From positions 124,001-188,000 of the forward strand of contig NZ_QJJK01000008.1 of NCBI RefSeq assembly GCF_003201475.1: DNA of 64,000 nucleotides, given 5' to 3'. The position numbers were made by a program, and so were the translations under genes. Below are positions 6,617 through 58,490 of this stretch, one piece after another. Numbering within the stretch: the first letter of the stretch is position 1; the number at the start of each line of letters is the position of its first letter. The notes below the pieces were generated by a model that saw only the letters and a program-made list of their open reading frames with translations, did no database searches and was not told where the DNA came from. Source of the stretch: Chelatococcus asaccharovorans (GTDB lineage: Bacteria; Pseudomonadota; Alphaproteobacteria; Rhizobiales; Beijerinckiaceae).

Positions 6617-6805
6617 AACAAATCCGACTTGGATGGAATCGTTTGACGCCATCCAAGCCATTGACTTGGATCGCTATTCCTGCGCGCAGCAAGTCTATAA
6701 CAGACGGACTTGCCTGTCGGTTATGAAGCTGAGCAAGTCCGCAACAGACGGACTTGCCTGTCCGTTATGAAGCTGAGCAAGTCCGCAACAGACGGACTTG
6801 CTCTA
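6617..6805 (+). repeat. Two-hairpin dispersed repeat A, copy a, with internal tandem duplication
   Basis: Starts with 'CAAATCCGACTTGGATGGAA', has the second-half hairpin GCAAGTCCG / CGGACTTGC, and the second half is duplicated in tandem with a 44-bp period (units at 6689-6732 and 6733-6776, then a partial unit to 6805). Its last bases CTAG at 6803-6806 supply the stop codon of the convergent DUF892 gene. Confidence 0.85.
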
Positions 6806-7294
6806 GGCCGCCTTGGCGTTGAGAGACTTTTCGGCGAGCCTCGTGAGCAGCTTGTCCGTTTTGATCTCCTCCTGGAGGGTCTGGTCGAGGAGCCTTGCGG
6901 CGTCCTTCATGCCGAGCTGGGTTGCCCAGGTCTTGAGGGTGCCATAACGCGCGATCTCGTAATGCTCCACCGCTTGAGCAGAGGCCGTGAGCCCGGCGTC
7001 GAGCGCTGACGTCCCGGCGAAATCCTCCATTACTTCCTTGCCCTCCTCGACGAGGCCAAGGATAGCGTCGCATGTCTTGCCGCGCGCTGGCTTGTCCATC
7101 ATCTCGAAAACTTGCTGCAAGCGATCGACATGCGTCTCGGTTTCGTCGCGGTGGGCCAGAAAGGCCTGCTTCAATTCCTCGGATCCTGCCCCGCGCGCCA
7201 TTTTGGGGAGGGCTCTCAGGATCTGCTTTTCGGCGTATAGGATATCCTTCAGCGTCTCGTGGAAGAGCGTCTCAAGATTCTGTTCCTTGGCCAT
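6803..7294 (-). CDS. DUF892 ferritin-like stress protein (YciE/YciF family)
   Basis: 163 residues, the usual length. A four-helix ferritin-like protein linked in many bacteria to general and envelope stress; the exact chemistry is not settled. Family marks: 'LETLFHETLKDILYAEKQILRALPKM' at the N-terminus, 'HRDETETHVDRLQQVFE', and 'QAVEHYEIARYGTL' with Glu/His residues in ferritin-like positions. I chose the ATG at 7294 because GGAG lies six bases before it; another ATG at 7300 overlaps that site. The stop codon is made by the CTAG end of a repeat A copy. Confidence 0.88.
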   Translation of the reverse strand: MAKEQNLETLFHETLKDILYAEKQILRALPKMARGAGSEELKQAFLAHRDETETHVDRLQQVFEMMDKPARGKTCDAILGLVEEGKEVMEDFAGTSALDAGLTASAQAVEHYEIARYGTLKTWATQLGMKDAARLLDQTLQEEIKTDKLLTRLAEKSLNAKAA

Positions 7295-7757
7295 AGCCAT
7301 CTCCGTGAATGTGGGGACGGCTGATTAACGAAAGCGACAGCCAGCGGTTCCCTCCAAACTGCGCGCTCTCCCCGATGCATGCCGCAGCGGCGGATGCGGC
7401 GAGATTAGAGAAGCTGATCCACACCGATAAACGGCGTCCTTGCTCTTGCATTCGCAAGAACGGACTATCTTCATGTCCACAGCGCTCCGGATGTCATCCA
7501 CCATACTCAAGCTAACGCTTCAGGATCCGGGGGACCGGGCGGTTTCCATAAAGGCGTCATGTCCTCGGATACAACACAGAGACTGTTTGGTGTCTCGCCG
7601 CGCGGCATGGACGATAACGTGATATGCACGCCGAACCCGCCATGACCTGCATGAGCTGCGATCGTTATGTCGGCCCGCGCCTTCCGAAGTGCGGGTCGTT
7701 TCCCTTGTACCAATCGCTTGGTTCTGGGAAGATTTGTGTTCGACTCAATTCGCTAGG
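7295..7757. other. Divergent spacer between DUF892 gene and NUDIX gene
   Basis: About 460 bp, no supported gene. It must carry both divergent promoters. I saw no conserved operator. Confidence 0.5.
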
Positions 7758-8312
7758 ATGCCAGTCTCGAAGATGAAATCAACGCGTCGCAAGGCCGCCC
7801 GTAATGGAGCTCCACTGCGTCAGGTGGCGGCCTTACCGTTTCGTGTGACCGAGACCGGTGCGGTCGAGGTGCTTGTGCTCACCACGCGCGAAACGCGGCG
7901 TTTCACTGTGCCCAAAGGCTGGATCGATCGCCGTCGGAAAGCCTGGAAATCGGCCGCGCAGGAGGCCCAGGAGGAGGCCGGCGTCGCTGGCAGGGTGAAG
8001 CACAAGCCAATTGGAACCTACACCTACTGGAAGCGGTTGGCGGATCACTTCGCGCTCGTCGAGGTCGATGTCTATCCGCTGAAGGTCGAAAAATTCCTCA
8101 AGCGTTGGCCGGAGAGGCGCGAACGATTTCGCAGATGGCTACCGGCCAGGGATGCCGCCCTTCTTATTGATGAACCGCAGTTGCATCACCTTGTCGAAGC
8201 ATTTGGCAAGGGTACCGCAAATGCGCTCATCGCGGGTGGAGTGCAACGTCCTCGGCTACCCAATGCGGTCGACAGGTCATTTGAGACTGAAGACGCAGAG
8301 CCCCAGAGTTGA
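7758..8312 (+). CDS. NUDIX hydrolase
   Basis: 184 residues from ATG 7758 ('MPVSKMKSTRRKAARNG'). The N-terminal 'RQVAALPFRV' strand and 'PKGWID' are typical of the alphaproteobacterial NUDIX group related to diadenosine/diphosphoinositol polyphosphate hydrolases. The NUDIX helix reads G-W-I-D-R-R-R...Q-E-A-Q-E-E-A-G. The catalytic Glu cluster EAQEE is present, but the first Glu of the 23-residue consensus is Arg and the conserved Arg is Gln. It probably cleaves a nucleoside-diphosphate-linked substrate in the cytoplasm. It sits among stress genes. Confidence 0.85.
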   Translation: MPVSKMKSTRRKAARNGAPLRQVAALPFRVTETGAVEVLVLTTRETRRFTVPKGWIDRRRKAWKSAAQEAQEEAGVAGRVKHKPIGTYTYWKRLADHFALVEVDVYPLKVEKFLKRWPERRERFRRWLPARDAALLIDEPQLHHLVEAFGKGTANALIAGGVQRPRLPNAVDRSFETEDAEPQS

Positions 8313-8362
8313 AAGGGTGATCGCACATCGCCTGGCGGAATGGTCGCAATGCCGTTCCTGCT

Positions 8363-8461
8363 AGAGCGCGTTTCGATCTGATTGCATCAGATCGGCGCTC
8401 TACCCTCTTTTATTTCAAGCATAATCTTATCGATCCTCGTTTCACTCCGGTCGGATTATGC
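8363..8461. repeat. Intergenic hairpin repeat interrupted by the IS element
   Basis: 'CTAGAGCGCG' followed by the hairpin GATCTGATTGCATCAGATC and GGCGCTCTA, then a second arm pair ending in 'GATTATGCTC'. The sequence continues beyond the IS at 9491 as 'TCTAGAGCATGCTG', so the insertion sequence split an older palindromic intergenic element. Confidence 0.6.
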
Positions 8462-9496
8462 TCTAGATGTCGTTTCCAAGAAGGTTGTTCAGCCTTGTCC
8501 ATGGCGCAAGGCCGTTGTGGGCTGAGTGGGGCCTGACGAGGTTGTAGTCGTCGAGCCAGGTCGGCATGGCTTCGGTTCTCTCGCGCGACGAGGCGTAAGG
8601 TGCGGCGTAAGCCCATTCCCGCAAGGTCGTTTGGATAAAGCGTTCGGCCTTTCCATTTGTGCGAGGCGTGTAGGGTCTCGTTCGGATGTGGCGGACGCCT
8701 CGGTTGGCGAGGAACCGTCGGAAAACATGGCTCTTATAGGCGCTGCCGTTGTCGCTCATGAGCCTCGCCACAGTGACGCCGTGGCGCGCGAACCAGGACA
8801 GAGCCCGGTCAGTGAAAGCGCAGACAGCGTCTGTTTTCTCATCGGCCAGGATTTCCGTGTAGGCCAATCGTGAGGCATCATCGATTGCGACGTGGAGAAC
8901 TTCCCATCCGGTGCCTCGCTTGCTGCTCTGGCCCCTCCTGTCACCGGTCATCCGATGGCCGATCCCATCGATGCGGCCCAGCTTCTTCGTGTCGACATGG
9001 ATCAGATCGCCCGGCCGTTCGCGTTCGTAGCGGTTGGCTGGGAGCTTGGACTCCAATGCTGTCAAACGCCCGAGGCCAATCCGGCGCAGGATGAGGCCCA
9101 CGGTCGCGCGCGGCATGCCCAGACGCCGCGCAATGGCCGGCCCGGTGAGGCGCTGACGACGCAGTTCCTCGATGGTGGCCACCGTTCCGATGGGAGTGCT
9201 GCTGGGCCGCCGCGCGGGCGCCGAGCTCCTGTCGTGCAGCATCCGCTCGCCGCCCGCCCGGAACCGCGCAAGCCACTTGAACCCTGTTCGCACGGAGACG
9301 CCCGCTGCCTCAGACGCGGCTACCACTGTCCAATCTTCTTCCACGACACGCCGCACGAGAAGGACTCGACCATGCATCGTCAGGCGCGCATTCTTATGAA
9401 CGTTCATCCGGGTGCTCCGGTTAGGGTTGGTGCTTCGCAACCCCAGCCTCACATCCCGGCCCCGGATGAACAACCTTCATAGCTTCGACATCTAGA
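8462..9496 (-). mobile_element. Intact IS481-family insertion sequence with 6-bp target duplication
   Basis: The element core runs from TGTCG at 8468 to CGACA at 9490. The terminal inverted repeats share TGTCG and, after seven mismatched bases, GAAGGTTGTTCA. The flanks are direct copies of TCTAGA (8462-8467 and 9491-9496), matching the NCTAGN target duplication reported for IS481 of Bordetella. One transposase gene fills the element. Clean ends and an uninterrupted frame suggest a recent, potentially active copy. Confidence 0.88.
8463..9407 (-). CDS. IS481-family transposase
   Basis: 314 residues from 'MNVHKNARLTMHGRVLLVRR'. An N-terminal helix-turn-helix ('AASEAAGVSVRTGFKWLARFR') is followed by the rve integrase core with the DDE triad: Asp in 'LIHVDTKKLG', Asp in 'ARLMSDNGSAYKS' and Glu in 'NGKAERFIQTTLREWAY'. 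Length and motifs are complete. The stop codon TAG is not in the element itself; it is formed by the duplicated target TCTAGA, so the frame ends correctly only when the element sits in a CTAG site. Confidence 0.93.
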   Translation of the reverse strand: MNVHKNARLTMHGRVLLVRRVVEEDWTVVAASEAAGVSVRTGFKWLARFRAGGERMLHDRSSAPARRPSSTPIGTVATIEELRRQRLTGPAIARRLGMPRATVGLILRRIGLGRLTALESKLPANRYERERPGDLIHVDTKKLGRIDGIGHRMTGDRRGQSSKRGTGWEVLHVAIDDASRLAYTEILADEKTDAVCAFTDRALSWFARHGVTVARLMSDNGSAYKSHVFRRFLANRGVRHIRTRPYTPRTNGKAERFIQTTLREWAYAAPYASSRERTEAMPTWLDDYNLVRPHSAHNGLAPWTRLNNLLGNDI

Positions 9497-9700
9497 GCAT
9501 GCTGACTTTATACGGAACCGTGGTGTCATTCCGGGGCGGGCCGAAAGGCCCGAGCCCGGAACCCATGAACACCATGGTCTACCAGAGAGGCACAGTCCGA
9601 TGCGTCTTTTCTCGGGCCGCGTGTTCATGGATCCCGGGCTCATTGCTGCGCAACGCCCCGGGATGACCGTGGGATTCCATCCAAATACAGCATGCTCTGG
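9491..9700. repeat. Imperfect ~200-bp intergenic palindrome
   Basis: GAGCATGCTG near 9496-9505 pairs with CAGCATGCTC near 9688-9697, and inside them 'GTCATTCCGGGGC' pairs with 'GCCCCGGGATGAC'. The inner 'GTCATTCC...GGGATGAC' design is a common non-coding repeat in this order. Frames across it look protein-like only by chance. Confidence 0.65.
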
Positions 9701-9939
9701 CGGTGCCGTGCATGATCTTGCGGGTGGAGCGGACTCTCGCGCGGCTCGTCAGCAGGCGCGGTCTTGTCTGTTCTCAACGTGGCGTCATGGCGGCGGTGTG
9801 TAGGGCACTCTTGCCGCGAATAGGGCTTTGTTCACCGGCGATGACGGGAGATGGCGCGCTCGGGTGACAAGGCTCGCCTGGCCTTCGGATCTTGCTGTGC
9901 CGGCGTATCGGGGAATATCGCGGTTCCGGCCGTAGACCG
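9701..9939. other. Spacer with no recognised gene
   Basis: About 240 bp following the palindrome. Nothing that I can support: no ribosome site, no family similarity, no clear hairpin. Confidence 0.5.
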
Positions 9940-10173
9940 TCAGCGAGCCGCAGCGACAGCCTTGGGCTTCCTGCGGGCTTTCACGGGGGGCGCAACCGTC
10001 GGCTCGCGCGCTTCCTGCTCCAACCTGGCAGCCCTCAGCCGGGCGGTCTTGGCATCGCGCGACGCCTCTTCCTGTCCAAGGATATCCCGCGCTGCCTTTG
10101 AGGTTGTTTCATGCCGTGCTTCAGTACGAGACAGTGCCAATTTGGAGCTGCGAAGCTCAGGCGTCGAGCGCAT
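9940..10173 (-). CDS. Small hypothetical protein, charged helical
   Basis: 77 residues, ATG preceded by a good site (GGAAGG, 8 bases away). The core 'AARDILGQEEASRDAKTARLRAARLEQEA' is a long charged helix of a type often seen in small uncharacterised Hyphomicrobiales proteins, and the tail is very basic ('KARRKPKA'). Function unknown. It lies downstream of the cold shock gene on the same strand, separated by a strong hairpin. Confidence 0.65.
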   Translation of the reverse strand: MRSTPELRSSKLALSRTEARHETTSKAARDILGQEEASRDAKTARLRAARLEQEAREPTVAPPVKARRKPKAVAAAR

Positions 10174-10196
10174 CAGAGTTCTTCCTTCCAGAGGAA

Positions 10197-10220
10197 GGAG
10201 GTCGGGCTTGCCCGACCTCC
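10197..10220. terminator. Strong hairpin between cold shock gene and small ORF
   Basis: GGAGGTCGGGC and GCCCGACCTCC are perfectly complementary with a two-base loop. It lies about 40 bp after the stop of the cold shock gene and just before the next start, so it may end or process that transcript. There is no T-run on the minus strand. Confidence 0.5.
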
Positions 10221-10257
10221 AAAAGCAACCACAGCAGCGTAGCGGGCGGATCGGGCC

Positions 10258-10467
10258 TTAGACGGCCTGAAGATTCTCGGCCGCCACCTTGCCCCTGCGA
10301 TCGTCCTTGACGGCGTCGAAGCTGATCTTCTGCCCTTCCGCAAGCGTGCGCATTCCAGCGCGCTCAAGCGCTGTAATATGCACGAATACGTCCGGTCCGC
10401 CGTTATCGGGCTGGATAAAACCGAAACCTTTATCGACGTTGAAGAATTTTACGGTACCAACAGTCAT
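10258..10467 (-). CDS. Cold shock domain protein (CspA family)
   Basis: 69 residues from '[21 protein letters not shown]'. A single OB-fold with RNP-1 (KGFGFI) and RNP-2 (VFVHI) binds single-stranded RNA/DNA and acts as an RNA chaperone. The window has a second paralogue at 34497-34706 with the same length. The start at 10467 is chosen by family length; the frame extends upstream without similarity. The leader upstream is long and contains the hairpin GCGCAGAC/GTCTGCGC near 10500-10521, as often found in csp leaders. Confidence 0.96.
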
Positions 10468-10717
10468 GGCGAGCTCCTTGTCGCATGCATAAAGGTACGC
10501 GCAGACCGTCTGTCTGCGCGCTAGTTGCATCGATTTTGTTGAGAAGATCGCCGGAAGCGCCGTTGGCGCAAAAAACAAAGTTCGGCAGCAAGATCGATAA
10601 TTCAGTTTAACACCGAAAAGATCATAACACCAGCGAAAGCTGCGCCATGCCGCGCAAGCCGGTTTCCCCGGTCGGTGCCCCTCCTGGCCTGCGCGCAGAT
10701 GGTCCGGCCCGCTGTGG

Positions 10718-13468: not shown

Positions 13469-13470
13469 GA

Positions 13471-14745: not shown

Positions 14746-15352
14746 AGATCGCCCCTGATGCGGAAATCACCATCATATTGCTGCACTATAACCTTTCGGT
14801 TGAACCAACGATACCACAGCCGGGCGAAATAGTCACCGGTCGCAGATTGCGCCACTCCAAGTCGTTTGGCGCGTAATGACGCGTGACAACTGCCGCCTCG
14901 CCATGTATCTGCCTGGCGTCATCATCCGATTCCCTCGCGGTTGAACGTTCAGACATGTCCAGGTTCCCTGGAAAGAACGCATGCTCATGCCTCCCATCTC
15001 CTGGCGCCCATCTCCTGGCGCCCGTCTCCTGGCGCCCGTCTCCTGGCGCCCGTCTTCGCGATCGAGGCGCGCGACGGCCCGCGGCGTCCCGATCGGCGTG
15101 TATCAACCAGATGGCTGCAACAGCCTTTGTATTCGAAGACAATGCGCCGGCTACCGGATGCGGCGCGTCGTTTAAAGTTACTTCAGTGCGTCTTATTACG
15201 CTGCGATAGCTCCAGTTACGCGATCCCGAGACGGCGCGATTTCGACCTGTGCGGCGGAACACAGGCGCGCCCGGTGGATAAGAGCATAATCCCGGGCGTC
15301 GAAAACTGGATCGGCCCGTGCGGTTTCTCAGTTTTGATGACGGAGTTAGACA
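14746..15352. other. Spacer containing a 14-bp tandem repeat
   Basis: About 600 bp without a supported gene. Overlapping frames on both strands exist only because of high G+C and the repeat at 14997-15052. Confidence 0.5.
14997..15052 (+). repeat. Four tandem 14-bp repeats (TCTCCTGGCGCCCG)
   Basis: Four units of TCTCCTGGCGCCC[A/G] in head-to-tail order, with the partial unit TCT after the last. Such short perfect arrays often vary in copy number between strains. Each unit contains the palindrome GGCGCC. Confidence 0.9.
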
Positions 15353-15565: not shown

Positions 15566-15640
15566 GCTCGCCCGGGACCTCTCAGTCGCGCGGCGGGACG
15601 ACTGGAGAGCGCCGATCACCGGACGACATTTCCACGGTTT

Positions 15641-19340: not shown

Positions 19341-19460
19341 CTGGAGCAAATCCGCCTTGGATTGTATCAACTTGGATTGAAGCAGCCGGTACGATCCAAG
19401 CCGGTGAATGGGCTCGTTCGTACCGAAGTGGAGCAAGTCCGCACAAGACGGACTTGCTCG
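19341..19460 (+). repeat. Two-hairpin dispersed repeat A, copy b
   Basis: Begins CTGGAGCAAATCCGCCTTGG, contains a middle segment diverged from the consensus, and ends with the perfect hairpin GCAAGTCCG-CACAAGA-CGGACTTGC. It lies 130 bp before the AI-2E-type permease start. Confidence 0.85.
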
Positions 19461-19590
19461 CGACGTGCGGCGGCGGCGCAATCGCAGCGCGTCACGGCCC
19501 GCCCGCCGCGGCTTCGCCGTCGCTCACCATCCGAGGCCGGCAAGGGGGATTTCCAAACGTCAGCGGAACCGCCTTTCCCGCCGGAGACTT

Positions 19591-20760: not shown

Positions 20761-20957
20761 CCCGGACAGGACCGATGACGCCGTCTGGCTCCGGTTCGGA
20801 GGCCCTGTCGGAACGCAGCGTAATCGAACAGCCTCCAGCAGGCTGGTGACAAGCGGAATTCGAACAGGCCGTGGCCATCCCCGGGGGCGATCCGTCGGGT
20901 TGGCCGGACTATGCCTGTCGGCGACACCTGCGACGACTGACTATCGATAGCTCCCAG

Positions 20958-21060
20958 GGCAAATCCGACTTGGATTGAATTCGCTTCTTCAATCCAAGTG
21001 CGTGAATTTGCTCGTCCATTTATGAGCGGAGCCAATCCGCTGCAGACAGACTTGCTCTAG
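20958..21060 (+). repeat. Two-hairpin dispersed repeat A, copy c (near-consensus)
   Basis: GCAAATCCGA then a perfect 11-bp hairpin CTTGGATTGAA / TTCAATCCAAG, spacer 'GTGAATTTGCTCG', 'TTTATGAGCGGAGC', and the second hairpin ending ACTTGCTCTAG. The final CTAG is shared with the left end of the MITE at 21057-21326, so one element lies directly against the other. Confidence 0.9.
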
Positions 21061-21326
21061 GGTCAGGACCCATTAATCTGGTTGAAATGGTGTGAGGCCA
21101 TTTGGCCGGATACAAGAAGCGGAGGTGAAGGAAGCCTTTCGGCTTTCGAGCGCTGCGCGACGCAGTTGCCGGCCAAATGGACCACATCCGAAGGACGCCG
21201 AAACGGCTGCGACCTGCGGCGTCGAGCCACTCGGCCGATGGAACCCCATCGACCTTCGCGTCTCTCCTGGCATCTCTTTGCCGTTTCAGGCGCCATTTCC
21301 ATCATATTAATGGGTCCTGACCCTAG
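21057..21326. mobile_element. 270-bp palindromic MITE-like element with TA duplication
   Basis: The ends are perfect inverted repeats of 21 bp: TAGGGTCAGGACCCATTAAT on the left and its complement on the right, with similarity continuing about 17 bp inward. No transposase frame fits inside. The bases outside GGGTCAGG/CCTGACCC are TA on both sides, consistent with TA-target elements (IS630- or IS427-like). The right-hand CTAG forms the stop codon of the diguanylate cyclase gene. Confidence 0.8.
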
Positions 21327-26849: not shown

Positions 26850-27254
26850 CCTTCGCCCATCACAGAGGTGATGTAGGCGCTGTCATAGTGGTCCCTGTTC
26901 GCCCAGGCAACAAAAACCAACACATTGGAATTATTATAACTTTAGCCTCAGCTAGACCCTCTGCGAGGGATCGCCGCCCGCCTCGGGCCGCGTGGTCGAC
27001 CCCTCGCAAAAAACCGGCGGATTGGCATCGCTGCGCATTTTTCTCGGAAGCCCGCCGCCATTCCCGGGCCTCGATCAGCAAGGAACCCGGATCCCCCCCG
27101 ACAGGCGGTCGGCCAGGAATTCGCTGATCAAGAATTCACGGCCGGACCGGTCCTCTCGCAGAGCGTTTTCGAGCGAAGTAGACACCGGTTCGCGTGAAGA
27201 AAATGTGTAAAAACAAAGGCCTGGAGCATCGACCGATAGACTGTCATTCCGGAG
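26850..27254. other. Spacer upstream of the ABC operon, with repeat B
   Basis: About 405 bp. The ABC operon promoter should lie in the AT-richer part around 26900-26950. The rest holds repeat B copy 2 and an open frame without support. Confidence 0.5.
27160..27228 (+). repeat. Dispersed intergenic repeat B, copy 2
   Basis: Core GAGCGAAGTAGACACCGGTT, then CGCGTGAAGAAAATGTGTAA and AAACAAAGGC; the reverse-oriented partner lies at 5718-5779. It sits after the stop of the AraC-type gene. Confidence 0.8.
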
Positions 27255-31751: not shown

Positions 31752-32278
31752 CACATTCCTCCCCTTCATGTCCATCCCTGACGCGGCGCATTTTAGGGCA
31801 GCACCGTCATTCATCATCCCAAAGCGGTCAGGCCAAGGGCAAACCGCCATTTTGGACCAATCTGCAACCCGGCAATGGATTGGTCATCCCATTCTTTAGG
31901 CCTATAGCAAATCCGACCGGAACGGAATCCTCCGAGACCACTCAAGTATTTGAATTTGCTTTTCTATTATCGCCCAAAGCAAGTCCGCACCGGCCGGTCT
32001 TGCTTCTTGCGGGGCGCGTGGGGTGCGGAGCCCGCCGCCATTCCTGGAGATCCACCCCGGAGGGGTATCCCGCAACGCGAGACCCGATACGGCGCGGTTC
32101 GGCGGCCCGAATGCCCTCCATTCATCCGATTCCCTGCCATGCTCCTCCAACGGCGCTCCTCCAACGGCGCTCCAACCGATGCGATCTATTGTTGATCAGC
32201 CGGGACGACCCTTGCAAGCACATTTTCATCCGACTAACATGTTACTGTGCAGTCAATTCAAAATGGGACGCTTTCATC
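31752..32278. other. Divergent promoter region containing repeat A copy d
   Basis: About 525 bp between the binding-protein gene and the DapA-family gene. Both promoters must be here. Copy d of repeat A occupies 31906-32008. A short tandem TCCAACGGCGCTCC duplication lies near 32145-32175. Confidence 0.55.
31906..32008 (+). repeat. Two-hairpin dispersed repeat A, copy d (diverged)
   Basis: AGCAAATCCGACC at the start, TTTGAATTTGCTT in the middle, AAGCAAGTCCGCACCGGCCG and GGTCTTGCTT at the end. The first hairpin is eroded; the second is still nearly palindromic. Confidence 0.7.
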
Positions 32279-33175: not shown

Positions 33176-33847
33176 ATGGAGAGGACGGGCGAAGAGCGCG
33201 ACCCTCCCAAATTGCGCGAGATCGCATACGACAGCTTCACCCGGCATCTGCTGGCCAATGCTGTCCGGCCGGGCCAGTTCGTCTCCCAACGGGAACTGGT
33301 CGAACTGACCGGCCTGACCCTCGGCGCCATCCGCGAGCTCGTGCCGCGGCTCGAGGCCGAAGGCCTGGTGAAGACCGTGCCGCAGCGCGGCATGCAGGTC
33401 GCCCATATCGATCTCGGGCTCATCCGTGACGCCTATCAGTTCCGCCTCTTTCTGGAGAAGGAGGCGATGGCCTTGTTCGTCGAGACCGCCTCGGACGCGA
33501 CGATCGCCGCGATCCGCGCCCAGCACGAAGACATCCTGCGGCGCGCCGAACAGGACGGGGCGAGCCTCGATCTCGCCGCGGAGGCGCAGGCCGTGGACTG
33601 GGGCTTCCACGACACGATCATCGATGCGCTCGGCAACGAGATCATCGCCAAGGCCTACCGGGTCAATTCCATCAAGATCCGCCTGATCCGTCAGGAACTG
33701 ACACGGATCGACGGCCTCGTCGTGCCCGTCATGAACGAACATCTTGCCGTGATCGCGGCCATGGAAACGCGCGATCCAGCCTTGGCGGCCGATGCGCTCG
33801 CCCGACATATCGACAGCGCCCGCCGTCGTGCCTTGGGATTGCGCTAA
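33176..33847 (+). CDS. GntR-family regulator, FadR/FCD subfamily
   Basis: 223 residues, start preceded by GAGAGG. N-terminal winged helix ('LVELTGLTLGAIRELVPRLEAEGLVKTVPQRGMQV') and an FCD all-helical effector domain with metal/ligand positions 'DWGFHDTIIDALGN' and 'NEHLAVIAAMETRDPALAADALARHI'. It lies 12 bp after the lyase gene, so it is cotranscribed and probably represses this catabolic cluster until the substrate or a product binds. Confidence 0.93.
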   Translation: MERTGEERDPPKLREIAYDSFTRHLLANAVRPGQFVSQRELVELTGLTLGAIRELVPRLEAEGLVKTVPQRGMQVAHIDLGLIRDAYQFRLFLEKEAMALFVETASDATIAAIRAQHEDILRRAEQDGASLDLAAEAQAVDWGFHDTIIDALGNEIIAKAYRVNSIKIRLIRQELTRIDGLVVPVMNEHLAVIAAMETRDPALAADALARHIDSARRRALGLR

Positions 33848-34150
33848 AGTCTATCCATGAGCGGAGCAAATCCGTCTTTGGCGGACCTGGTGCAGAGCCC
33901 CGGAGAGGCTGCAGCCTGGCACCTCCGACGGCTGACCGCGCGGGGATTGCCCGGCATCGGGCGGCGCGTTACACCGAATCACGGTCGGCCCGCTACGATC
34001 GGCCATTGACAGGAACATCAACGCCTCCCATGTGTTCGCGATGCGCGGAGGAGGCGGGGCCGTCCAATGTGCTGACCTGAGATGGAATTCGTCGAGGGCG
34101 GTCGCGCACCGGAGCGCGGCATGGGCCCATCATGTGATGAGAGCATCGTG
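33848..34150. other. Spacer with a fragment of repeat A
   Basis: About 300 bp, no gene supportable. GAGCGGAGCAAATCCG at 33859-33874 starts a hairpin CCGTCTTTGGCGG and looks like a decayed piece of repeat A. Confidence 0.5.
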
Positions 34151-38593: not shown

Positions 38594-38672
38594 ACCGACT
38601 ATCGCTTGGTCTGCTTGCGCTAAGTCTTGCCCTGCTTGCGCTAACTCTTGCCCTGCTTGCGCTAACTCTTGC
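38594..38672 (-). repeat. Tandem 21-bp in-frame repeats at the 3' end of cydX
   Basis: Units of GCGCAAGCAGGGCAAGAGTTA (minus strand) repeat three times with one base change, then a partial fourth. Each 21-bp unit encodes Arg-Lys-Gln-Gly-Lys-Ser/Thr-stop in the cydX frame, so the last six codons and the stop codon of cydX are themselves duplicated. Confidence 0.88.
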
Positions 38673-38778
38673 CCTGCTTGCGCTTGGCATCGTCTTCGGT
38701 GAGCTCGTACCACATGGCGTTGAGCACCGCGAAGGCGGCGGCCAGGGGAAGTCCGAGAAGCCAGGAAAAATACCACAT
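38662..38778 (-). CDS. cydX: Cytochrome bd oxidase small subunit CydX
   Basis: 38 residues: a single membrane helix, beginning 'MWYFSWLLGLPLAAAFAVLN' and continuing 'AMWYELTEDDAKRKQGKS'. The MWYFSW start and the helix followed by 'WYE' are diagnostic of CydX, a peptide needed for stable, active bd oxidase. It lies 22 bp after cydB, where it is expected. Too short for ordinary gene finders. Its basic tail comes from tandem repeats. Confidence 0.93.
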   Translation of the reverse strand: MWYFSWLLGLPLAAAFAVLNAMWYELTEDDAKRKQGKS

Positions 38779-43307: not shown

Positions 43308-45130
43308 GCCAGCGCCTCCAAAACCTGGGCCTCCACATCGATCGTGCGATCCATCTGCGCCATCAGGCGGGGATCGTGGGTGGCGACGACGAGCGTGCGC
43401 CCGCGCGACAGGGCGATCAGCCCTTCCGTGACCATGGCCGCGGTGGCCGCGTCGAGATGGGCGGTCGGCTCGTCCACGAGAATGAGATCGATCCTCGGAT
43501 CCGCCGCGGCGCGTGCGAGGGCGAGCCGCAGCGCCTCGCCGCCGGAGAGCCCGATGCCTCCCTCGCCGAGCGGGGCGGCGCCATGGGCGGCGGCCACATC
43601 CCGCAGCGCCGCCACGGCGAGCGCCTTGTCAAGGTCGGTCGCGGTCAGGCCGTCGCGCCCCAGGGTGATGTTGCTCATGAGGCTGCCGGCAAAAATATGC
43701 GGCCGCTGGCCAATCCAGGCCATGCGCGTCCGGAGCTCTGCGGCGGACGCCCCGGTCAGCGCGCGACCATCGATGAGAATCTGGCCGGACTCCGGCGCGA
43801 CGAGCCCGGCGATCAGCGCAAGCAGGGTCGACTTGCCGGCGCCGCTGCGGCCCGTCAGCGCAACCTTCTCACCCGGCGCAATCGCCAAAGCGGCATCGGT
43901 GATCACCTGCCGCCCGGCGCCCGCATGGGCAAAGGCGAGGTTCTCGACAACCACTGATGGCCCGCCGCGGGCGGCAGCCGGAACGCGGGAAGCCTTCGCA
44001 TCCGCGCCGGGAAGGCCTACGCCGGTCGTCCTGAGCCCGTCGAGCGCATTGAGCGCCGCTTCTCCCGATGCCCTGTCGTGCCAGACGGACGACAGCTCGC
44101 GCAGCGGCTCGAAGAAGGCGGGCGCGATGAGGAGGACAAACAGGCCTTCAGCCAGGGTGAGCCGGCCGCTCCAGGCACCGAAATTGAGTTGCCCGAGGAG
44201 GTGGAAGCCCACATAGACCGCGACCATGGCAACCCCGAGCGCCGCGAAGAGCTCGAGCACCGCGGACGACAGGAAGGCGATGCGCAGGACGGCCATGGTG
44301 CGCTTGCGCAGGCCCTCCGCATGGGCGCGCAGCCGGGCAGCGGTCATGTCGACAGCGCCAAGCGCGCGAATGGTGGCAAGGCCGCGCAACCGGTCGAGCA
44401 GGAAGGCGTTCATGCCGCCGATCTCGACCATTTGCTCCTCGCTCGCCGCTTTGGCGCGCCAGCCGATCAGCGCCATGAAGACCGGAATGATCGGCCCGGC
44501 GATCAAGAGCGTCAGGGCGGCAACCCAGGAGAAGGCGAGGACCGTCAAGAGAATGGCGAGCGGAACGATGGTCACCCGGATGCGCACGGGCTGGAAGCGC
44601 GCCAGCAGCGGCACGACCGCCTCGGCCTGCTCGGCCAGCACACTGGCGGCGAGACCCGACGCGGGCCGCGCCTGATCGAGCGGCGAGCGCCCCGCCAGCG
44701 CCGCTGCCGCGTCATGCCGCAACTGGCTAAGCTTTCCGCGTGCCGCGCGGAACGCCAGTCGCCCGGCCCAGCCGTCGAGGGCGGCCCGCAGGGCGCCGAT
44801 GCCGAAGACCAGCGCCGCGGGCGCGACCGCATCGGCAAGGCCCGCCCCCCGGGCCATCCCGCCGACACTCCACGCGATGAGCCCGGCCTGGGGCAGCCAG
44901 AGCAGGGAGGACAGGGTCTGGACATAGCCCGCGGCACGCGCCGAGACATGAGCGGAGGCATGGGCGGAGGCCTGGGCAGAGACATGGGCGGAGGCATGGG
45001 CGGAAGCCTGCGCACGTGGATGCGCCTCGGCCTGCGCCTGCGGCGGCTCTCCCGCAAGGCCTGCCGGGCGCTCAGCCGGCAGGGCTCCCATACCGCCCAG
45101 CCTGCCGCGAGAATAGGCCATGTCCGTCAT
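43298..45130 (-). CDS. cydD: Thiol reductant ABC exporter subunit CydD, with repetitive N-terminal extension
   Basis: 610 residues, slightly long. Membrane domain then ATPase with Walker A GRSGAGKST, signature LSGGEALR, Walker B LILVDEPTAHLD. An unusual insert of six tandem 12-bp repeats near residues 39-66 encodes Ala-Ser-Ala-His/Gln-type repeats, before the first membrane helix; it should be flexible and cytoplasmic. Its ATG overlaps the stop of the regulator (ATGA). Confidence 0.94.
   Translation of the reverse strand: MTDMAYSRGRLGGMGALPAERPAGLAGEPPQAQAEAHPRAQASAHASAHVSAQASAHASAHVSARAAGYVQTLSSLLWLPQAGLIAWSVGGMARGAGLADAVAPAALVFGIGALRAALDGWAGRLAFRAARGKLSQLRHDAAAALAGRSPLDQARPASGLAASVLAEQAEAVVPLLARFQPVRIRVTIVPLAILLTVLAFSWVAALTLLIAGPIIPVFMALIGWRAKAASEEQMVEIGGMNAFLLDRLRGLATIRALGAVDMTAARLRAHAEGLRKRTMAVLRIAFLSSAVLELFAALGVAMVAVYVGFHLLGQLNFGAWSGRLTLAEGLFVLLIAPAFFEPLRELSSVWHDRASGEAALNALDGLRTTGVGLPGADAKASRVPAAARGGPSVVVENLAFAHAGAGRQVITDAALAIAPGEKVALTGRSGAGKSTLLALIAGLVAPESGQILIDGRALTGASAAELRTRMAWIGQRPHIFAGSLMSNITLGRDGLTATDLDKALAVAALRDVAAAHGAAPLGEGGIGLSGGEALRLALARAAADPRIDLILVDEPTAHLDAATAAMVTEGLIALSRGRTLVVATHDPRLMAQMDRTIDVEAQVLEALACV
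44943..45014 (-). repeat. Six 12-bp tandem repeats inside cydD
   Basis: Period 12 with a clear higher-order pattern of two 36-bp blocks (each of three related 12-mers such as GAGGCATGGGCG). They stay in frame and add an Ala/Ser/His/Val/Gln-rich segment to CydD. Confidence 0.88.
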
Positions 45131-45748: not shown

Positions 45749-45888
45749 TTACATATTCGCCAATTGACCAGCCGGCAAGCCCCCTCTTCACCGGGAGGCC
45801 CACCATCCACACGAACCTCATGCCGTCACCCGACACGAGCGCATGTCCATCTCGCATAAACCAGACGGGCATTCCCGGCCCGCTCGCG

Positions 45889-45990
45889 CACATCCGACTT
45901 GAGTGGACTGGTCCGGTACCATTCAAGCCGGTGAATTTGATCGACGACTTTCGAGCAGAGCCAATCCGCAAGAGACGGACCTGCTCTGGG
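45889..45990 (+). repeat. Two-hairpin dispersed repeat A, copy f
   Basis: CACATCCGACTTGAGTGGAC, a second arm ATTCAAGCC, GTGAATTTGATCG and the terminal GCCAATCCGCAAGAGACGG followed by ACCTGCTC. Both hairpins are recognisable though worn. Confidence 0.75.
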
Positions 45991-51049: not shown

Positions 51050-51098
51050 AGCAATCCGACGTCAGTGGAATTGCCTGGTACCCTGACAAGGTGAAGTT

Positions 51099-51593: not shown

Positions 51594-51686
51594 GACCGGG
51601 ATTTCGCGTCAGGCCGACCAGGGTTTTGGCAGGGATGCGCCAAAAGCCGCTATTGCCAAGCCGGACTCGCGAAAGACTTCGGGAGG

Positions 51687-52487: not shown

Positions 52488-53020
52488 TCGTCTACTCCAC
52501 GCCCGTCGCCGACCTCGGGTCGTGCGAGAGGGCCATAAGGCGCCGCGCCCGTCCCGATGCACGGCACCGCTTTCCACTCAAGTCGTTGTACCAAATAGTC
52601 GTGGACGGCGGGTGAACGCGATGGTCGAAACGCGGCTCGGCCCGGACGCCAGCCGAGAGCAACGGACACGGCCTTCATGTAAAGGCGACGGCCGCAAGCG
52701 GCGGAGCCAATGCGGCTTGAATGGAACCGGCCGAAACCTTCCAAGGCGGTGAAGGTACCCAACCCTTTATCCAGCAGAGAACGTCCGCGACAGTCGGATT
52801 TGCTCTCCAACACCGAAACCGGGCCCGGTCAAGCGCATCGCCAACCGCTCCGTGAACCATTCGTTATCGATAGGATGAGAAAAATCCGCGGCTGGACGTT
52901 TCCGCCTCCGGATTGCCCAAACTCTGCCAAGTCCTGGTCGGCATCATCAGCGATCACTGTTGCGACGTGACTGGCGGACGAGCCGTCATCAGCGTCTTTA
53001 TGGAACGAAAGACCAGGATC
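52488..53020. other. Spacer containing repeat A copy g
   Basis: About 530 bp, no gene supportable. Copy g of repeat A occupies 52703-52806. Confidence 0.55.
52703..52806 (+). repeat. Two-hairpin dispersed repeat A, copy g (diverged)
   Basis: GAGCCAATGCGGCTTGAATGGAA at the start region (shown in part), TTCCAAGGCGGTGAAGG, and AACGTCCGCGACAGTCGG then ATTTGCTCT at the end; both hairpins are partly eroded. Confidence 0.65.
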
Positions 53021-53221: not shown

Positions 53222-53471
53222 ACCGCGCGTCGTCCGAAACAGGCGCCGGTGCGCCCGGCGGTCGAGCCGGGATGGCGGCGCAGGCCTATCGACCAGGCGC
53301 GCTCACACGGCTTCACGGGTCGCTTCTCCCGGGCGCGCGTGGCGCATGTCTGCCGTCTCCGAGCCCCGGAGGCGTGCGACCCGTCTGACGGTGCGCGACT
53401 GCGTTGCGCCATTCCGGGCGGAGGACGGAGGACCCTCCAGCCCTTTTCTGGAATTGGCGAGCTACAATGGC

Positions 53472-54062
53472 TTACAGCACCACGACGCGGGTTCCCGGCT
53501 GGACGCGATTGTAGAGGTCGATGACGTCCAGATTGCGCATACGGATGCAGCCCGAAGAAACGGCCTGGCCGATCTTCTCGGGTTCGTTCGTGCCGTGGAT
53601 CCGGTAGAGCGTATCACGGCCCTTTTCGTCGTAGAGATAGAGCGCGCGCGCGCCGAGGGGATTGTTCGGGCCGCCCGCGGTGGCGCGGACATGCGGCCAG
53701 CGTTCCTTCATCTCAGCCGGCGGATTCCAGTTCGGCCATTCCGCCTTGCGCTGCACGGTCGCATTGCCGGTCCAGCCATAGGCCTCGTCGCCGACCGCCA
53801 CGCCGTAGCGCATGGCACGCTTGTTCGGCAGCACGTAGTAGAGTTGACGCTGCTTCTGCTTGACAACGATGGTGCCGGGCGGCTCACCCGTGGGATCATC
53901 GATCTCATAGCGCGCGAACAGCGGATCGACCGACGCCTGGGGCATCTGCGCCATCCATTCCGTATCGCGGCTCGACACCGCCGGATCCGGCACCGTCTTG
54001 AAATTACAGCCGGCGAGGACAGACGCAGACAGGAGAACAGCAAAAAACGTCTTGAGGCGCAT
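53472..54062 (-). CDS. YkuD-family L,D-transpeptidase lipoprotein
   Basis: 196 residues from ATG 54062. Lipobox L-A-G-C at about residue 18 anchors it to a membrane. The YkuD active site reads 'YRIHGTNEPEKIG...SSGCIRM' with the catalytic Cys. It forms 3-3 peptidoglycan crosslinks or attaches lipoproteins to peptidoglycan. It is divergent from the deacetylase gene, with an AT-rich promoter between. Confidence 0.93.
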   Translation of the reverse strand: MRLKTFFAVLLSASVLAGCNFKTVPDPAVSSRDTEWMAQMPQASVDPLFARYEIDDPTGEPPGTIVVKQKQRQLYYVLPNKRAMRYGVAVGDEAYGWTGNATVQRKAEWPNWNPPAEMKERWPHVRATAGGPNNPLGARALYLYDEKGRDTLYRIHGTNEPEKIGQAVSSGCIRMRNLDVIDLYNRVQPGTRVVVL

Positions 54063-54443
54063 GTCTGGGGCGGCTCCATCAGGGGAAGGCTGGCGCGATT
54101 CGGGAATCGTCAACCATGTTTATTATGGTTCTATTACCGTTATGGTTAATGAAACAATTACCGTCGGCACGCGGGTGGCCTGCGTGCCACGAATATCAAC
54201 GCCGCCGCAGAGCCGTGCGGGGGCGGCGATCCTCTCTCAGGCCCTATCTCGGGCCATCCGCACCGATCTCCGGACGTGACAGGACGATCCGGTCGCCCGG
54301 TCGCGGAGAGCCTTCTCTACACCGGGCCGATGGACGGCGCCCGTCAACCGCCCAAGTTCTGCTGTCGCCCGCGTGCATTTTCTGCTCAGCTTGGGGAGCG
54401 ATCGGGGCCGGGTCGTGCGGCACCGGTTGCAGGAGGCGAAGGC
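54063..54443. other. Divergent spacer with AT-rich promoter
   Basis: About 380 bp. At 54115-54165 the direct repeat TATTACCG/AATTACCG and TTATGGTT elements form an AT-rich strip that should hold promoters. The rest is without a gene. Confidence 0.5.
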
Positions 54444-55370
54444 GTGACGCTTTACATCACCCATCCAGCATGTCTTGAGCATCGGGTCCCGGCAGGACAT
54501 CCCGAGCGTCCGGACCGCCTGCGGGCCGTGGACGCCGCGCTCGCGACGCCGCCCTTCGCGGGCTTGCAACGGATGACGGCGCCACGCGCAAGCGAAGAAG
54601 CCGTCGCACGCGCACACACGGCCGCCTATGTCGCTGATATCGCGGGGCAGACCCCCGACGCAGGCCTCGTTCAGATCGACGTCGATACGACACTCTCACC
54701 CGGGAGCTATGAGGCCGCTCTCCGCGCCGCGGGAGGCGCCGTGCAGGCGGTGGACGAAGTCCTTCAGGGACGCGCGCGTAACGCCTTCTGCGGCGTACGC
54801 CCGCCCGGGCATCATGCCGAGCGCGAGAAGGCGATGGGCTTTTGTCTGTTCAACAATGCGGCGATCGCGGCTCGCCACGCCCGCGAGGTCCATGGGCTTG
54901 ACCGCGTCTGCATCTTCGATTGGGACGTGCATCACGGCAACGGCACCCAGGATATCTTCTGGAACGACGCGAGCGTGCTCTATTGCTCAACCCATGAAAT
55001 GCCGCTCTATCCCGGCACCGGGAGCCGCGCGGAGCGGGGCGAACACGACACGATCGTCAATGTGCCGCTTGCGGCCGGCGATGACGGAGCGGCATTGCGC
55101 GAAGCCTGCGACGTCGTGATCTTTCCGCGGATAGCGGCCTTCAGGCCGGACCTGATCATCCTGTCCGCCGGTTTCGACGCTCACTGGCGCGATCCCTTGG
55201 CGAGCCTCAATTTCACCGAGGACGATTTCGCATGGGCAACGCGCGAGATCATGGCGATCGCCGCGCGCCTGTGCGAAGGCCGAATCGTGTCCGTCCTCGA
55301 AGGCGGCTATGATCTGGAAGGGCTTGCCTGCTCGGCCGCGACCCATGTCGCGGCCCTCATGGAGGCTTAA
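54444..55370 (+). CDS. Histone deacetylase-family amidohydrolase (class II HDAC-like)
   Basis: 308 residues from GTG 54444, decided by the perfect AGGAGG site seven bases upstream. Zinc-dependent deacetylase of acetyl-lysine, polyamines or acetoin-type compounds. Active-site marks: 'RPPGHHAE' (His dyad), 'FDWDVHHGNGT' (Asp/His zinc ligands), 'SAGFDAHWRDP' (second Asp) and 'EGGYDL'. Highly similar arrangement to AphA/HdaH. A palindromic element abuts its stop codon. Confidence 0.95.
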   Translation: MTLYITHPACLEHRVPAGHPERPDRLRAVDAALATPPFAGLQRMTAPRASEEAVARAHTAAYVADIAGQTPDAGLVQIDVDTTLSPGSYEAALRAAGGAVQAVDEVLQGRARNAFCGVRPPGHHAEREKAMGFCLFNNAAIAARHAREVHGLDRVCIFDWDVHHGNGTQDIFWNDASVLYCSTHEMPLYPGTGSRAERGEHDTIVNVPLAAGDDGAALREACDVVIFPRIAAFRPDLIILSAGFDAHWRDPLASLNFTEDDFAWATREIMAIAARLCEGRIVSVLEGGYDLEGLACSAATHVAALMEA

Positions 55371-55576
55371 CAGGCTGTTGAAAAACTGTTTCTCGAACCG
55401 CTCACGTGTCATCCCCGGCGCGATTGGCGAAGCCAATAGCGGGAAGGGGATCCAAAATCATCAAGGGCGTCATTGTCCTGGATTCCCTTCCCCTCGGGCC
55501 TTGCGACCCTCGGCCGGGAATGACACCGTCGCCAAATGACATCGCTCAGGCAAAGGCTGAGTTTTTCAACAGCCTG
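55371..55576. mobile_element. 206-bp MITE-like palindromic element
   Basis: Ends are a perfect 17-bp inverted repeat: CAGGCTGTTGAAAAACT (55371-55387) and AGTTTTTCAACAGCCTG (55560-55576). No transposase inside; an inner 'GTCATCCCCGGC...GCCGGGAATGAC' palindrome is nested in it. The left end starts directly after the stop codon of the deacetylase gene, and a piece of repeat A begins just past the right end. Confidence 0.75.
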
Positions 55577-55579
55577 CTA

Positions 55580-55608
55580 AAGCAAGCCCGCAAAAGACGG
55601 ACTTGCTC
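55580..55608 (+). repeat. Repeat A, copy h (second hairpin only)
   Basis: AAAGCAAGCCCGCAAAAGAC followed by GGACTTGCTC; the first half is missing, presumably replaced or cut by the palindromic element to its left. Confidence 0.75.
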
Positions 55609-55650
55609 CGCAGGGGAACCGCCTGTCCCGCGGTCCCCCAACCTGGGCGT

Positions 55651-56952
55651 TCAGCCTATGTCGACGGGCTCCGTCGAGACGATCTCGATCCCGAAGCCGG
55701 AAATGCCGATATAGGTGCGCGGTCCCGATGCGAGATTACGGATCGAGGACACGCCGAGATCCTTCAGGATCTGCGCGCCGAGCCCGATCTCGCGCCATTG
55801 CTGCAGCCGCTGTTCCTCCGAGCTCACCCGGCCCGCCGCCTCCCCGGCAAGGCTGGTCGGCACGCCGGCCGTGCCGTCGCGCAGGTAAACGAGGACACCG
55901 CGCCCGGCCGATTTGAAACGCTGTAACGCCGCATGGATGACCTTCGCTCCACCGAGAACATCGGCCAGAATGTCGCAGCGGTGCAAGCGCGTCGGGATTT
56001 CACGGCCGTCGCTGATGTCGCCATAGACGAAGGCGTAGTGCTGCACCGGATCCATCGACGTCATATAGGCATAGCCCGTGAGCTCGCCGATATCCGTTTG
56101 AACGGGAAATGTCGTGACCCGATCGACGAGCTTCTCGCGCATGCGGCGATAGGCGATGAGGTCGGCCACGGAGATCCGCAGGAGGTTGTGCTTCTCGGCG
56201 AAGGCGGTGACCTGCGGGCCGCGCATGACGGTGCCGTCGTCATTGACCAGTTCCGCGAGCACGCCGACAGCCGGGAGGCCGGCAAGCTTGCACATGTCGA
56301 CACAGGCTTCCGTGTGGCCCGAGCGCATGAGTACGCCGCCTTCACGGGCGATAAGCGGAAAGACATGGCCCGGCCGCACGAAATCGTCGGGGGCCTTGTT
56401 GTGATTGGCGAGCGCCCGCACCGTATTGGTGCGCTCCTCAGCCGATATGCCCGTCGTCAGGCCGTCGCGAACGTCGACAGAGACCGTAAAGGCGGTGCCG
56501 AGCGGCGCATCGTTGAAGGTCACCATCGGATCGAGCCGCAGTCGCCGCGCCTCGGCCTGCGCGAGAGGTGCACAGACAATACCTGAGGTATGCCGGACGA
56601 TGAATGCCATCTGTTCCGGGGTGCACAAACTCGCCGCGACGAACAGATCGCCTTCATTCTCGCGATCATCATCGTCCGTCACGACAACCATCGCACCCCG
56701 AGCAAATGCCTCGATGGCTTCCAAAACGCTGTTACGCAAGCGCGCCTCCTCGCTCTCTCGAGCATCGGCCAGAAAATCGTTGGGTGTCACAGCTCCGCGC
56801 GTCTCGCGGATGATCAAACGCGCGGTTTCCCGGCTGAGCCAGGCCGCTTCATTGTTGCAGAGCTGGGTAACCGCAGCGGGGGTAACACCAATGCGGCGCG
56901 CAAACTCCGCCCGGCTGACGCCATGCAGTGTGAGCCAATCGATCAATTTCAT
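55651..56952 (-). CDS. ribB: 3,4-dihydroxy-2-butanone-4-phosphate synthase with N-terminal HTH and degenerate RibA-like domain
   Basis: 433 residues from ATG 56952. Residues 1-60 form a Cro/XRE-like helix-turn-helix ('MKLIDWLTLHGVSRAEFARR', 'VTPAAVTQLCNNEAAWLSRE'). The RibB domain follows with 'DDDRENEGD' (97-102) and 'SGHTEACVDM' intact, so it makes the four-carbon riboflavin precursor. The C-terminal RibA-like domain lacks the CDCG zinc cluster ('HRCDILADVLGG'), so GTP cyclohydrolase activity is not expected. Its promoter carries GCATT/AATGC palindromes, so it may bind its own operator. Confidence 0.94.
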   Translation of the reverse strand: MKLIDWLTLHGVSRAEFARRIGVTPAAVTQLCNNEAAWLSRETARLIIRETRGAVTPNDFLADARESEEARLRNSVLEAIEAFARGAMVVVTDDDDRENEGDLFVAASLCTPEQMAFIVRHTSGIVCAPLAQAEARRLRLDPMVTFNDAPLGTAFTVSVDVRDGLTTGISAEERTNTVRALANHNKAPDDFVRPGHVFPLIAREGGVLMRSGHTEACVDMCKLAGLPAVGVLAELVNDDGTVMRGPQVTAFAEKHNLLRISVADLIAYRRMREKLVDRVTTFPVQTDIGELTGYAYMTSMDPVQHYAFVYGDISDGREIPTRLHRCDILADVLGGAKVIHAALQRFKSAGRGVLVYLRDGTAGVPTSLAGEAAGRVSSEEQRLQQWREIGLGAQILKDLGVSSIRNLASGPRTYIGISGFGIEIVSTEPVDIG

Positions 56953-56962
56953 CGGCAGGGAC

Positions 56963-57040
56963 GCTAATGCCGAGGGGCATTTAATGCAAATAAAATCACG
57001 CGCGGACGCGCGCAACCCGGCATTAAGTGCAACTAAATGC
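56963..57040. promoter_or_regulatory. GCATT/AATGC repeats in the ribB promoter, candidate autoregulatory sites
   Basis: Three related sites: GCTAATGC (56963-56970), the perfect palindrome GCATTTAATGC (56977-56987), and GCATTAAGTGCAACTAAATGC's flanking half-sites (57020-57040), the last overlapping the aroC stop codon. They fill the ~80-bp gap upstream of ribB. The HTH domain of RibB is a natural candidate to bind them; an FMN riboswitch consensus was not recognised. Confidence 0.55.
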
Positions 57041-58157
57041 CACCGGGCGGCGTTTGCGGCCATGCCGGCGATGACCCGACCTGCCCGCGATGGCGCAGGA
57101 AGTGGTCGGCCAGCACGCAGGCGACCATCGCTTCACCAACAGGCACGGCACGGATGCCGACACAGGGATCATGCCGCCCCTTGGTCATCACATCAACCTC
57201 GTGCCCGAAACGGTCGACCGACTGGCGCTCGCTGAGGATCGAGGACGTCGGCTTGACCGCAAAGCGTGCGACCACCGGCTGGCCGGTGGAAATGCCGCCG
57301 AGAATGCCTCCGGCGTGGTTCGAGAGGAACAGCGGGCCGTCGTTACCCGGCCGCATTTCGTCGGCGTTCTCTTCGCCGGAGAGCGCCGCGGCGGCGAAAC
57401 CCTCACCGATCTCGACGCCTTTGACGGCATTGATGCTCATCAGCGCAGCCGCCAGATCGCTGTCCAGCTTCCCATAGATCGGCGCGCCAAGCCCCGCCGG
57501 CACGCCCTCTGCCACGATCTCGATGACAGCCCCGACGGACGACCCGCGCTTGCGCACCTCGTCGAGAAAATCGGCGAACCGGGCAGCCGCTTGCGCATCC
57601 GGGCAGAAGAAGGGGTTGCGACCGACCTCGTCCCAGTCCCAGCGGCTGCGATCGATCTTGTGCGGGCCGACCTGCACGAGAGCACCGCGCACGGCAAGCC
57701 CGGGGACGACCCGGCGGGCGATCGCTCCGGCAGCGACCCGCATCGCGGTCTCGCGCGCCGACGAGCGCCCACCACCGCGGTAATCCCGGATACCGTACTT
57801 GATATCATAGGTGAAATCGGCATGGCCCGGCCGATAGCGATCCTTGATCTCCCCGTAATCCTTGGAACGCTGATCGACATTCTCGATGAGAAGGCCGATC
57901 GAGGTGCCGGTCGTGACCTGCTCGCCCGTGACAGGGTCCGCGAAGACGCCGGAGAGGATCTTGACCGCATCCGGCTCGCGCCGCTGGGTCGTAAACCGGG
58001 ACTGGCCCGGGCGGCGGCGATCGAGCTCGGCCTGGATGTCCGCCTCGCTCAGCGGAATCCGCGGCGGGCAACCGTCCACCACGCAGCCGATAGCCGGTCC
58101 ATGGCTCTCGCCAAATGTGGTGACGCGAAACAGATGGCCGAAACTATTGTGAGACAT
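57033..58157 (-). CDS. aroC: Chorismate synthase
   Basis: 374 residues from '[20 protein letters not shown]' (GAGAGGG upstream). Last step of the shikimate pathway: EPSP to chorismate, using reduced flavin. Signatures '[16 protein letters not shown]', '[15 protein letters not shown]', '[21 protein letters not shown]' and '[15 protein letters not shown]' are all intact. Its stop overlaps a putative operator of ribB. The reduced-FMN requirement makes its neighbourhood with riboflavin synthesis sensible. Confidence 0.98.
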
Positions 58158-58490
58158 GGAGCCCTCTCGATCCAGCGCTTCATAGCGAAGCATGGCCTCA
58201 GGGGTCAAATGGACGTCGCGCCCGTTTATTTCATGGCAAGGACAAATTGTTGCCGTCACCGCTCCTACCGCCTGGAGCCAATCCGCCTGTTGCGAGTTGG
58301 CTCCGCTTAAAACTAGACGGCAAATTCAATGACTTGGATTGAATTAGCTGATTCAATCCAAGTCGGATTTGCCCCAGTCGGAACAATTGGCCCAGGCCGC
58401 GCGATAAGTCCCATAGCGGCCAAGGACGATCGTGTGCGATGCATTGCTCATGATGCGATCAAGACCTTGGCGCAGTCAGAGGAGATCAGA
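58158..58490. other. Spacer with an inverted copy of repeat A
   Basis: About 330 bp between divergent genes. It holds copy i of repeat A at 58273-58377 on the minus strand. Confidence 0.6.
58273..58377 (-). repeat. Two-hairpin dispersed repeat A, copy i (best preserved, inverted)
   Basis: On the minus strand: GGCAAATCCGACTTGGATTG, then a 14-bp perfect hairpin around AGCTAA, TTGAATTTGCCG, and a second hairpin GCCAACTCG...CGGATTGGC. Compared with other copies the arm change A/T to C/G is found on both arms, keeping the pairing. Confidence 0.88.

Follow-up and report, generated by a model that had tools for sequence, protein, structure and literature searches.

A probable family of miniature inverted-repeat transposable elements at YTAR sites, with some copies seated on stop codons, in Chelatococcus asaccharovorans

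A palindromic repeat of ~105 bp recurs in a 64,000-nucleotide stretch of the Chelatococcus asaccharovorans genome (contig NZ_QJJK01000008.1, positions 124,001 to 188,000; this whole stretch is called the window). The repeats are very probably non-autonomous miniature inverted-repeat transposable elements (MITEs) of one family, moved in trans and targeting YTAR. At ~105 bp the element is too short to encode a transposase and contains no such gene. It carries terminal inverted repeats, with GAGCAARTCCG at both ends; the TA of YTAR is duplicated, as seen at two clear and one weaker empty site; and copies are present or absent at orthologous sites. A YTAR target with duplication of TA is also what IS5/IS427-type insertion sequences (ISs) display. 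We regard the family as new among MITEs and its type as known, with the RIME and Bru-RS repeats compared by description.

The element consists of two hairpins with the consensus (C)TAGAGCAAATCCGRCTTRGATGGAATCGTCTGATACCATCYAAGYCGGTGAATTTGCTCGTCAATTTTTGAGCGGAGCAAGTCCGCAAAAGACGGACTTGCTCTAG. The initial annotation had described the two hairpins correctly, and its consensus needed revision at the ends, which are CTAGAGCAARTCCG...CGGACTTGCTCTAG and give the whole element terminal inverted repeats. Four versions of GAGCAARTCCG bound the two hairpins, the inner version of hairpin 1 being less well kept, and the outer two constitute the terminal inverted repeats. Halves are also found alone, at 55581-55608 in the window and in L102. 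A hairpin at about position 2244 of L101 has the same outer motif with another inner arm (GCTTTACGGC), and perhaps belongs to a related subfamily.

We built a covariance model (R1) from 28 genome copies (alignment A3) and searched the draft assembly of 7,254,611 bases in 40 contigs. At least 150 matches were obtained at E 0.01 (the best 150 of 2436 candidates were scored), including a few antiparallel double hits. The 13-base end motif TAGAGCAARTCCG occurred 109 times in the genome vs. once for a reversed control; together with the 150 matches, this indicates that the repeats are not due to chance. After removal of two duplicates from 125 matches, 123 rows were used below, a few of them still being antiparallel or partial. 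R1 matches numbered 20, 15, and 36 in three congeners, 6 in another genus of the family, and 1 in a further one (E 7e-4). Six of the 41 genomes, counting that of C. asaccharovorans, had an R1 match, as did at least 13 of 397 genomes in a sample of the family (best 9 candidates scored). The exact hairpin-2 pattern was found in named genomes on three contigs, all from Chelatococcus sambhunathii S14, which had six matches altogether. The expectation that a structured family with many copies exists outside the window was thus borne out in the genome, the congeners, and C. sambhunathii, and copies in the latter two argue that the family is not a local accident.

To define the target site, flank bases were counted outward from anchors within the element. 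At the left end (n = 92), C (70) or T (15) was followed by T (71), A (71), and then the G of the element (87). At the right end (n = 82), the C of the element (76) was followed by T (58), A (69), and then G (65) or A (11). Conservation ended sharply beyond CTAG; elsewhere no base was shared by half of the rows. Since the outer base varies between C and T on the left and between G and A on the right, and the inner G and C are steadier, we concluded that TA is duplicated and that the target is YTAR, mostly CTAG. A separate reading of 55 copies gave the same duplication and target. Duplications longer than CTAG were looked for at the junctions and none was found.

Comparison with the congeners supplied two clear two-sided empty sites, L049 and L109, each against two of the three congeners. 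At L049, C. asaccharovorans has ...GCGTT-TAG-[element]-GAG-AGGACAACGGGC, where G001 and likewise G003 have ...GCGTG-TAA-AGGACAACGGGC; L109 resembles this case against the same two genomes. L043 is a weaker two-sided empty site, with 5-6 matching bases beyond the stop. At these three sites the congeners have a single TAG or TAA and C. asaccharovorans has one on each side of the element, although at two far ends it has since become GAG or TGG by decay.

From ~10.7 to 64 kb the window is collinear with all three congeners and aligns to them in pieces 74-88% identical. Full or half copies occupy seven sites in this part, among them 19343-19462, 45885-45989, and 58272-58375, and no R1 match was found at their syntenic sites in any of the three, a result to be read with the caution that decayed or half copies could escape the model. 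The congener counterpart of this part has one R1 copy, at another place and in G003 only. The syntenic gap at 20956-21060 measures ~80-93 bp in the three congeners vs. ~550 bp here. In another stretch of 12.9 kb with six sites, no element was present at five of them in the three congeners, nor at the sixth in G003, the only congener compared there; L181-L183 likewise had no R1 match. At several of these sites the intergenic alignments are poor, and absence is firmer there than the exact junctions.

Many copies touch the end of a gene. We scored frames of at least 80 codons running towards the element, called by length and third-position GC without a gene finder. From 246 element ends, 64 without a recognizable terminus were excluded, leaving 182 testable ends, and 88 of these faced a gene with its stop at -250 to +100 bases. 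In 28 of the 88 the stop codon was made up exactly of the terminal TA and the base that follows it (TAG in 27, TAA in 1); every other offset occurred at most twice. In a rougher count that dropped the coding filter, 35 of 98 frames at the junction were open over 100 codons vs. 17 and 8 in the other two frames. The window contains one such case, the DUF892 gene at 6803-7300 on the minus strand, whose stop codon is supplied by the right-end CTAG (6803-6806) of the element at 6615-6806. In other genomes, 29 distinct match sequences gave 28 testable ends, and a junction stop was present at 8 of 17 gene-facing ends (three in G003, one in G001, and four in C. sambhunathii, two of the latter being both sides of one copy).

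The stop codon usually stands at the native position. Of 53 comparisons with orthologues, 45 show the native stop (24 TAG, 11 TAA, and 10 TGA) at this very codon, corresponding to 20 of 23 genes, and none of the 53 congener gene ends runs on into an element. The congener gene-end places comprised 30, 20 more, and some in stretches already compared, with the remainder left out; for 5 of the 28 genes the compared stretches contained no orthologue. With G as its first base and C as its last, the element would let TA and the neighboring base read TAG again on whichever side the gene lies. The terminal G and C would in this way restore the stop, and the protein of a stop-seated gene is usually left whole.

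We propose that a transposase acting in trans would insert the element at the TA of YTAR, with a preference for CTAG, and that insertion would duplicate the TA. Insertions within genes would presumably be purged. The window contains 17 CTAG sites vs. 214 predicted from base composition, a 12-fold deficit; with such a rare motif, a fair share of whose occurrences are TAG stop codons, many surviving copies would come to sit on stops, where the first G or last C of the element would remake the stop on either side. The seating on stops (28 of 123 rows, about 23%) could in principle also come from a transposase with an active preference for gene ends themselves, such as terminator DNA, over and above CTAG. 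We consider this quite improbable, given that 24 of 131 CTAG sites outside elements in the same DNA (18%) close a coding-like frame, so that the elements show no clear excess. The availability of CTAG predicts about the stop seating that is seen, and availability with purging is therefore the simplest account. It is likewise unlikely that the family is adapted to stop codons, as a gene-end parasite that inserts silently at TAG or TAA and gives genes 3'-untranslated region (3'-UTR) hairpins acting on the mRNA.

The hairpins themselves were examined by folding and by pairing statistics. Two good copies outside the window gave RNA folds of -55.6 and -58 kcal/mol (z about -9). Six window copies gave z values from -7.3 to -0.5, and the copy at 52703-52806 folded no better than shuffled sequences (z -0.54). 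On 122 distinct rows, 91.4% of the cells at paired positions can pair and two-sided changes keep pairing in 16 of 27 pairs, exceeding all 500 shuffles; since the alignment was fitted to the model, these counts are biased in its favor. The covariation score was 0.153 vs. at most 0.055 in slid versions of the alignment, one of which likewise has 16 two-sided pairs. The paired arm changes first noted in a single window copy are confirmed on these 122 rows.

Such covariation raises the question of whether the repeats are kept as RNA elements, that is, as portable 3'-UTR hairpins stabilizing or terminating mRNA. The strong folds of the two good copies, the covarying stems, and the direct contact with stop codons are in line with this idea, and the excess of G-T over A-C cells (139 vs. 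92; G-T ahead in 18 of the 24 unequal pairs, p 0.02) hints at pairing at the RNA level, although it is mild and comes from related, non-independent rows. However, the two orientations relative to the stop-seated gene are balanced (L 13, R 15), which also speaks for a MITE, the congeners share no copies at the sites examined, and many copies are decayed, and we judge maintenance as RNA to be improbable. A stronger contender for the covariation is mutational: template switching within palindromes would copy one arm onto the other without selection on the fold. The covariation sits in the long palindromic arms, and in one C. sambhunathii copy the inner arms differ over nearly their whole length and still pair, both of which favor this reading. 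We give this explanation an appreciable, though minor, chance.

We searched for the transposase that would mobilize the MITEs. The initial annotation had compared the repeats to repetitive extragenic palindromic (REP) elements with a REP-associated tyrosine transposase (RAYT) as partner. Bacterial interspersed mosaic elements (BIMEs) have two opposed hairpins, and the present repeats resemble REPs and BIMEs in being high-copy palindromes, mostly between genes, with a tetranucleotide at the ends. A REP- or BIME-type element moved by a RAYT (Y1, IS200/IS605-like) transposase is nevertheless very improbable. A PF01797 (Y1) search of seven genomes gave a single match, in a genome of the same order and another family, and none in the C. 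asaccharovorans genome or the three congeners; in a control, 5 of 14 named genomes had matches. The REP/RAYT partner was rejected on this ground. In addition, the TA duplication and the inverted repeats at both ends differ from REPs as described, which have GTAG or CGTC at one end (PMC3733652) and not CTAG at the two ends.

The target site points instead to a DDE transposase of the IS5 family, IS427-group type, and we think it somewhat probable that the helper was of this kind. IS711 (IS6501) of Brucella reportedly duplicates the TA of YTAR (PMC2266754), the target and duplication found here; IS427-group ISs of Paracoccus are described as 832-865 bp long with mostly 2-bp direct repeats (PMC3281130); and Escherichia coli IS5 is reported to prefer Py-T-A-Pu, with CTAG as the commonest form (15 of the 24 sites known; PMC5493358). 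These three likenesses are the reason for favoring an IS427-type helper. IS5 differs in that it reportedly duplicates four bases, whereas two (TA) fit the junctions here. The genome has two IS5-type (PF13340) ISs of 824 and 849 bp, similar in length to the Paracoccus elements, which by this analogy may belong to the IS427 group. One lies at about 1424-2248 of L193, with TA on both sides, and interrupts a frame that we take to be panB-like; the other, at about 955-1803 of L194, has CTAG at both ends. Both begin with G at the duplicated TA. They differ from the present elements in their termini, which are unlike GAGCAARTCCG, and in their length, the elements being too short for a transposase.

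Among small palindromic repeats, RIME (Rhizobium intergenic mosaic elements) resemble the element in size and in their two-palindrome form. They are likewise repeated, intergenic, and structured, being described as rhizobial intergenic repeats with conserved secondary structure (PMC2573895). Bru-RS1 and Bru-RS2 of Brucella, reported as 103-105 bp palindromic repeats and possible IS711 hot spots (PMC2266754, PMC2267715), match our element in size, palindromes, and alphaproteobacterial host. Both comparisons are by description, not by sequence. Bru-RS differs in being described as a possible insertion hot spot of IS711; here no transposase with the element termini was found.

Several points weigh against the MITE interpretation and the proposed seating on stops. 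No autonomous parent with matching ends was found in the 40-contig draft by PF13340, DDE_3, and solitary-motif searches, other transposase families not having been searched. The two PF13340 ISs were rejected as helpers since their inverted repeats differ from GAGCAARTCCG, and an IS630-type helper was rejected because the genome search gave no DDE_3 match. From part of the 109 end-motif places we inspected 14 stretches around solitary motifs. In six of them, which lack a full-length element, the 2.4-2.9 kb beyond the solitary motif showed no inverse copy of it at up to 3 mismatches, except one at 40 bases; a longer parent behind them was rejected, as none of the six had an inverse motif at a parent-like distance, the genes there not having been searched for transposases. 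The remaining stretches held elements, solo hairpins, or lone motifs. The helper may have been lost, may lie in an assembly gap, or may not have been recognized. Identity to the consensus has a median of 0.87 (range 0.66-0.96, 120 rows), which suggests that amplification may be over. The covariation of the inner stems exceeds what a MITE needs. In 3 of the 23 genes (next to L036, L038, and L045), the stop is shifted by ~1, 5, and 9 codons.

In the window, R1 matched eight stretches at E<1e-6, and the remaining matches overlap the copies given below on the opposite strand. All nine places first proposed proved to contain the repeat or a piece of it; eight are on the plus strand. The copy at 6615-6806 (R1 matches at 6615-6718 and 6730-6806) has hairpin 2 three times in tandem with a period of 44, and that at 19343-19462 has ~15 additional bases within hairpin 1. 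The copy at 20956-21060 scored highest in the window (103 bits), the decayed copy at 31904-32008 has CTA as its left junction, and a further copy lies at 45885-45989. The copy at 52703-52808 is strongly decayed, with a weak fold. A hairpin 2 fragment at 33855-33885 corresponds to a weak R1 match at 33768-33895 (E 0.005). A lone hairpin 2 of ~28 bp at 55581-55608, formed by an inverted repeat, a short loop, and an inverted repeat, corresponds to another weak match at 55553-55611 (2e-4, hairpin 2 only). The copy at 58272-58375 is inverted, on the minus strand. The copies generally lie between genes, as had been claimed, with the exception of 6615-6806, which at its right end provides the stop codon for the 6803-7300 gene. 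The density of about one per 7 kb holds for the window as a local high and is not a genome mean; representing 0.9% of the genome, the window yet has 5 of the 150 genome matches, among the matches listed. Rfam covariance models gave no match in the window at the gathering score.

Other repeats were seen nearby. A second MITE-like stretch of ~270 bp (21057-21326), with 34-bp inverted ends (91%) containing GGTCAGGACCCATTAAT and CTAG at both ends, adjoins the 20956-21060 copy at the latter's right end and lies within the stretch absent from the three congeners. At about 55370-55578, immediately to the left of the lone hairpin that starts at 55581, inverted ends around CAGGCTGTTGAAAAAC and TTTTTCAACAGCCTG are ~200 bp apart; this stretch is outside the congener alignment. 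Short tandem repeats with periods of 21, 14, and 12 occur at 38599-38703, 14984-15061, and 44923-44994, respectively. Another repeat, X (GAGCATTTTCGAGCGAAGTGGACACCGGTTCGCGTGAAG...), is found at 5712-5777 and 27161-27226. By blastn, X matched 10 plasmid records from Bradyrhizobium, Methylobacterium, Xanthobacter, Sinorhizobium, and partly Bosea. The same search of the plasmid collection with the element gave no match, and the result for X indicates that it works for repeats of this size. X-like sequence adjoins the element at a CTAG-like junction in at least 11 of the 123 rows, as read from the flanks. Only 1 of 20 X copies has a stop codon at its end, and a stop-codon habit is unsupported for X.

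In the openly licensed literature, judged mostly by titles and abstract openings, we found no report of MITEs that restore stop codons. The family offers a base-resolution case of how a mobile element can find a place in a dense bacterial genome while doing little damage. The route to low harm would be a target motif that is rare in this DNA and common at stop codons, combined with a terminal base that remakes the stop. For annotation, some stop codons belong to transposons, and mRNA 3' ends may be affected too. The same junction test can be applied to other elements that target YTAR.

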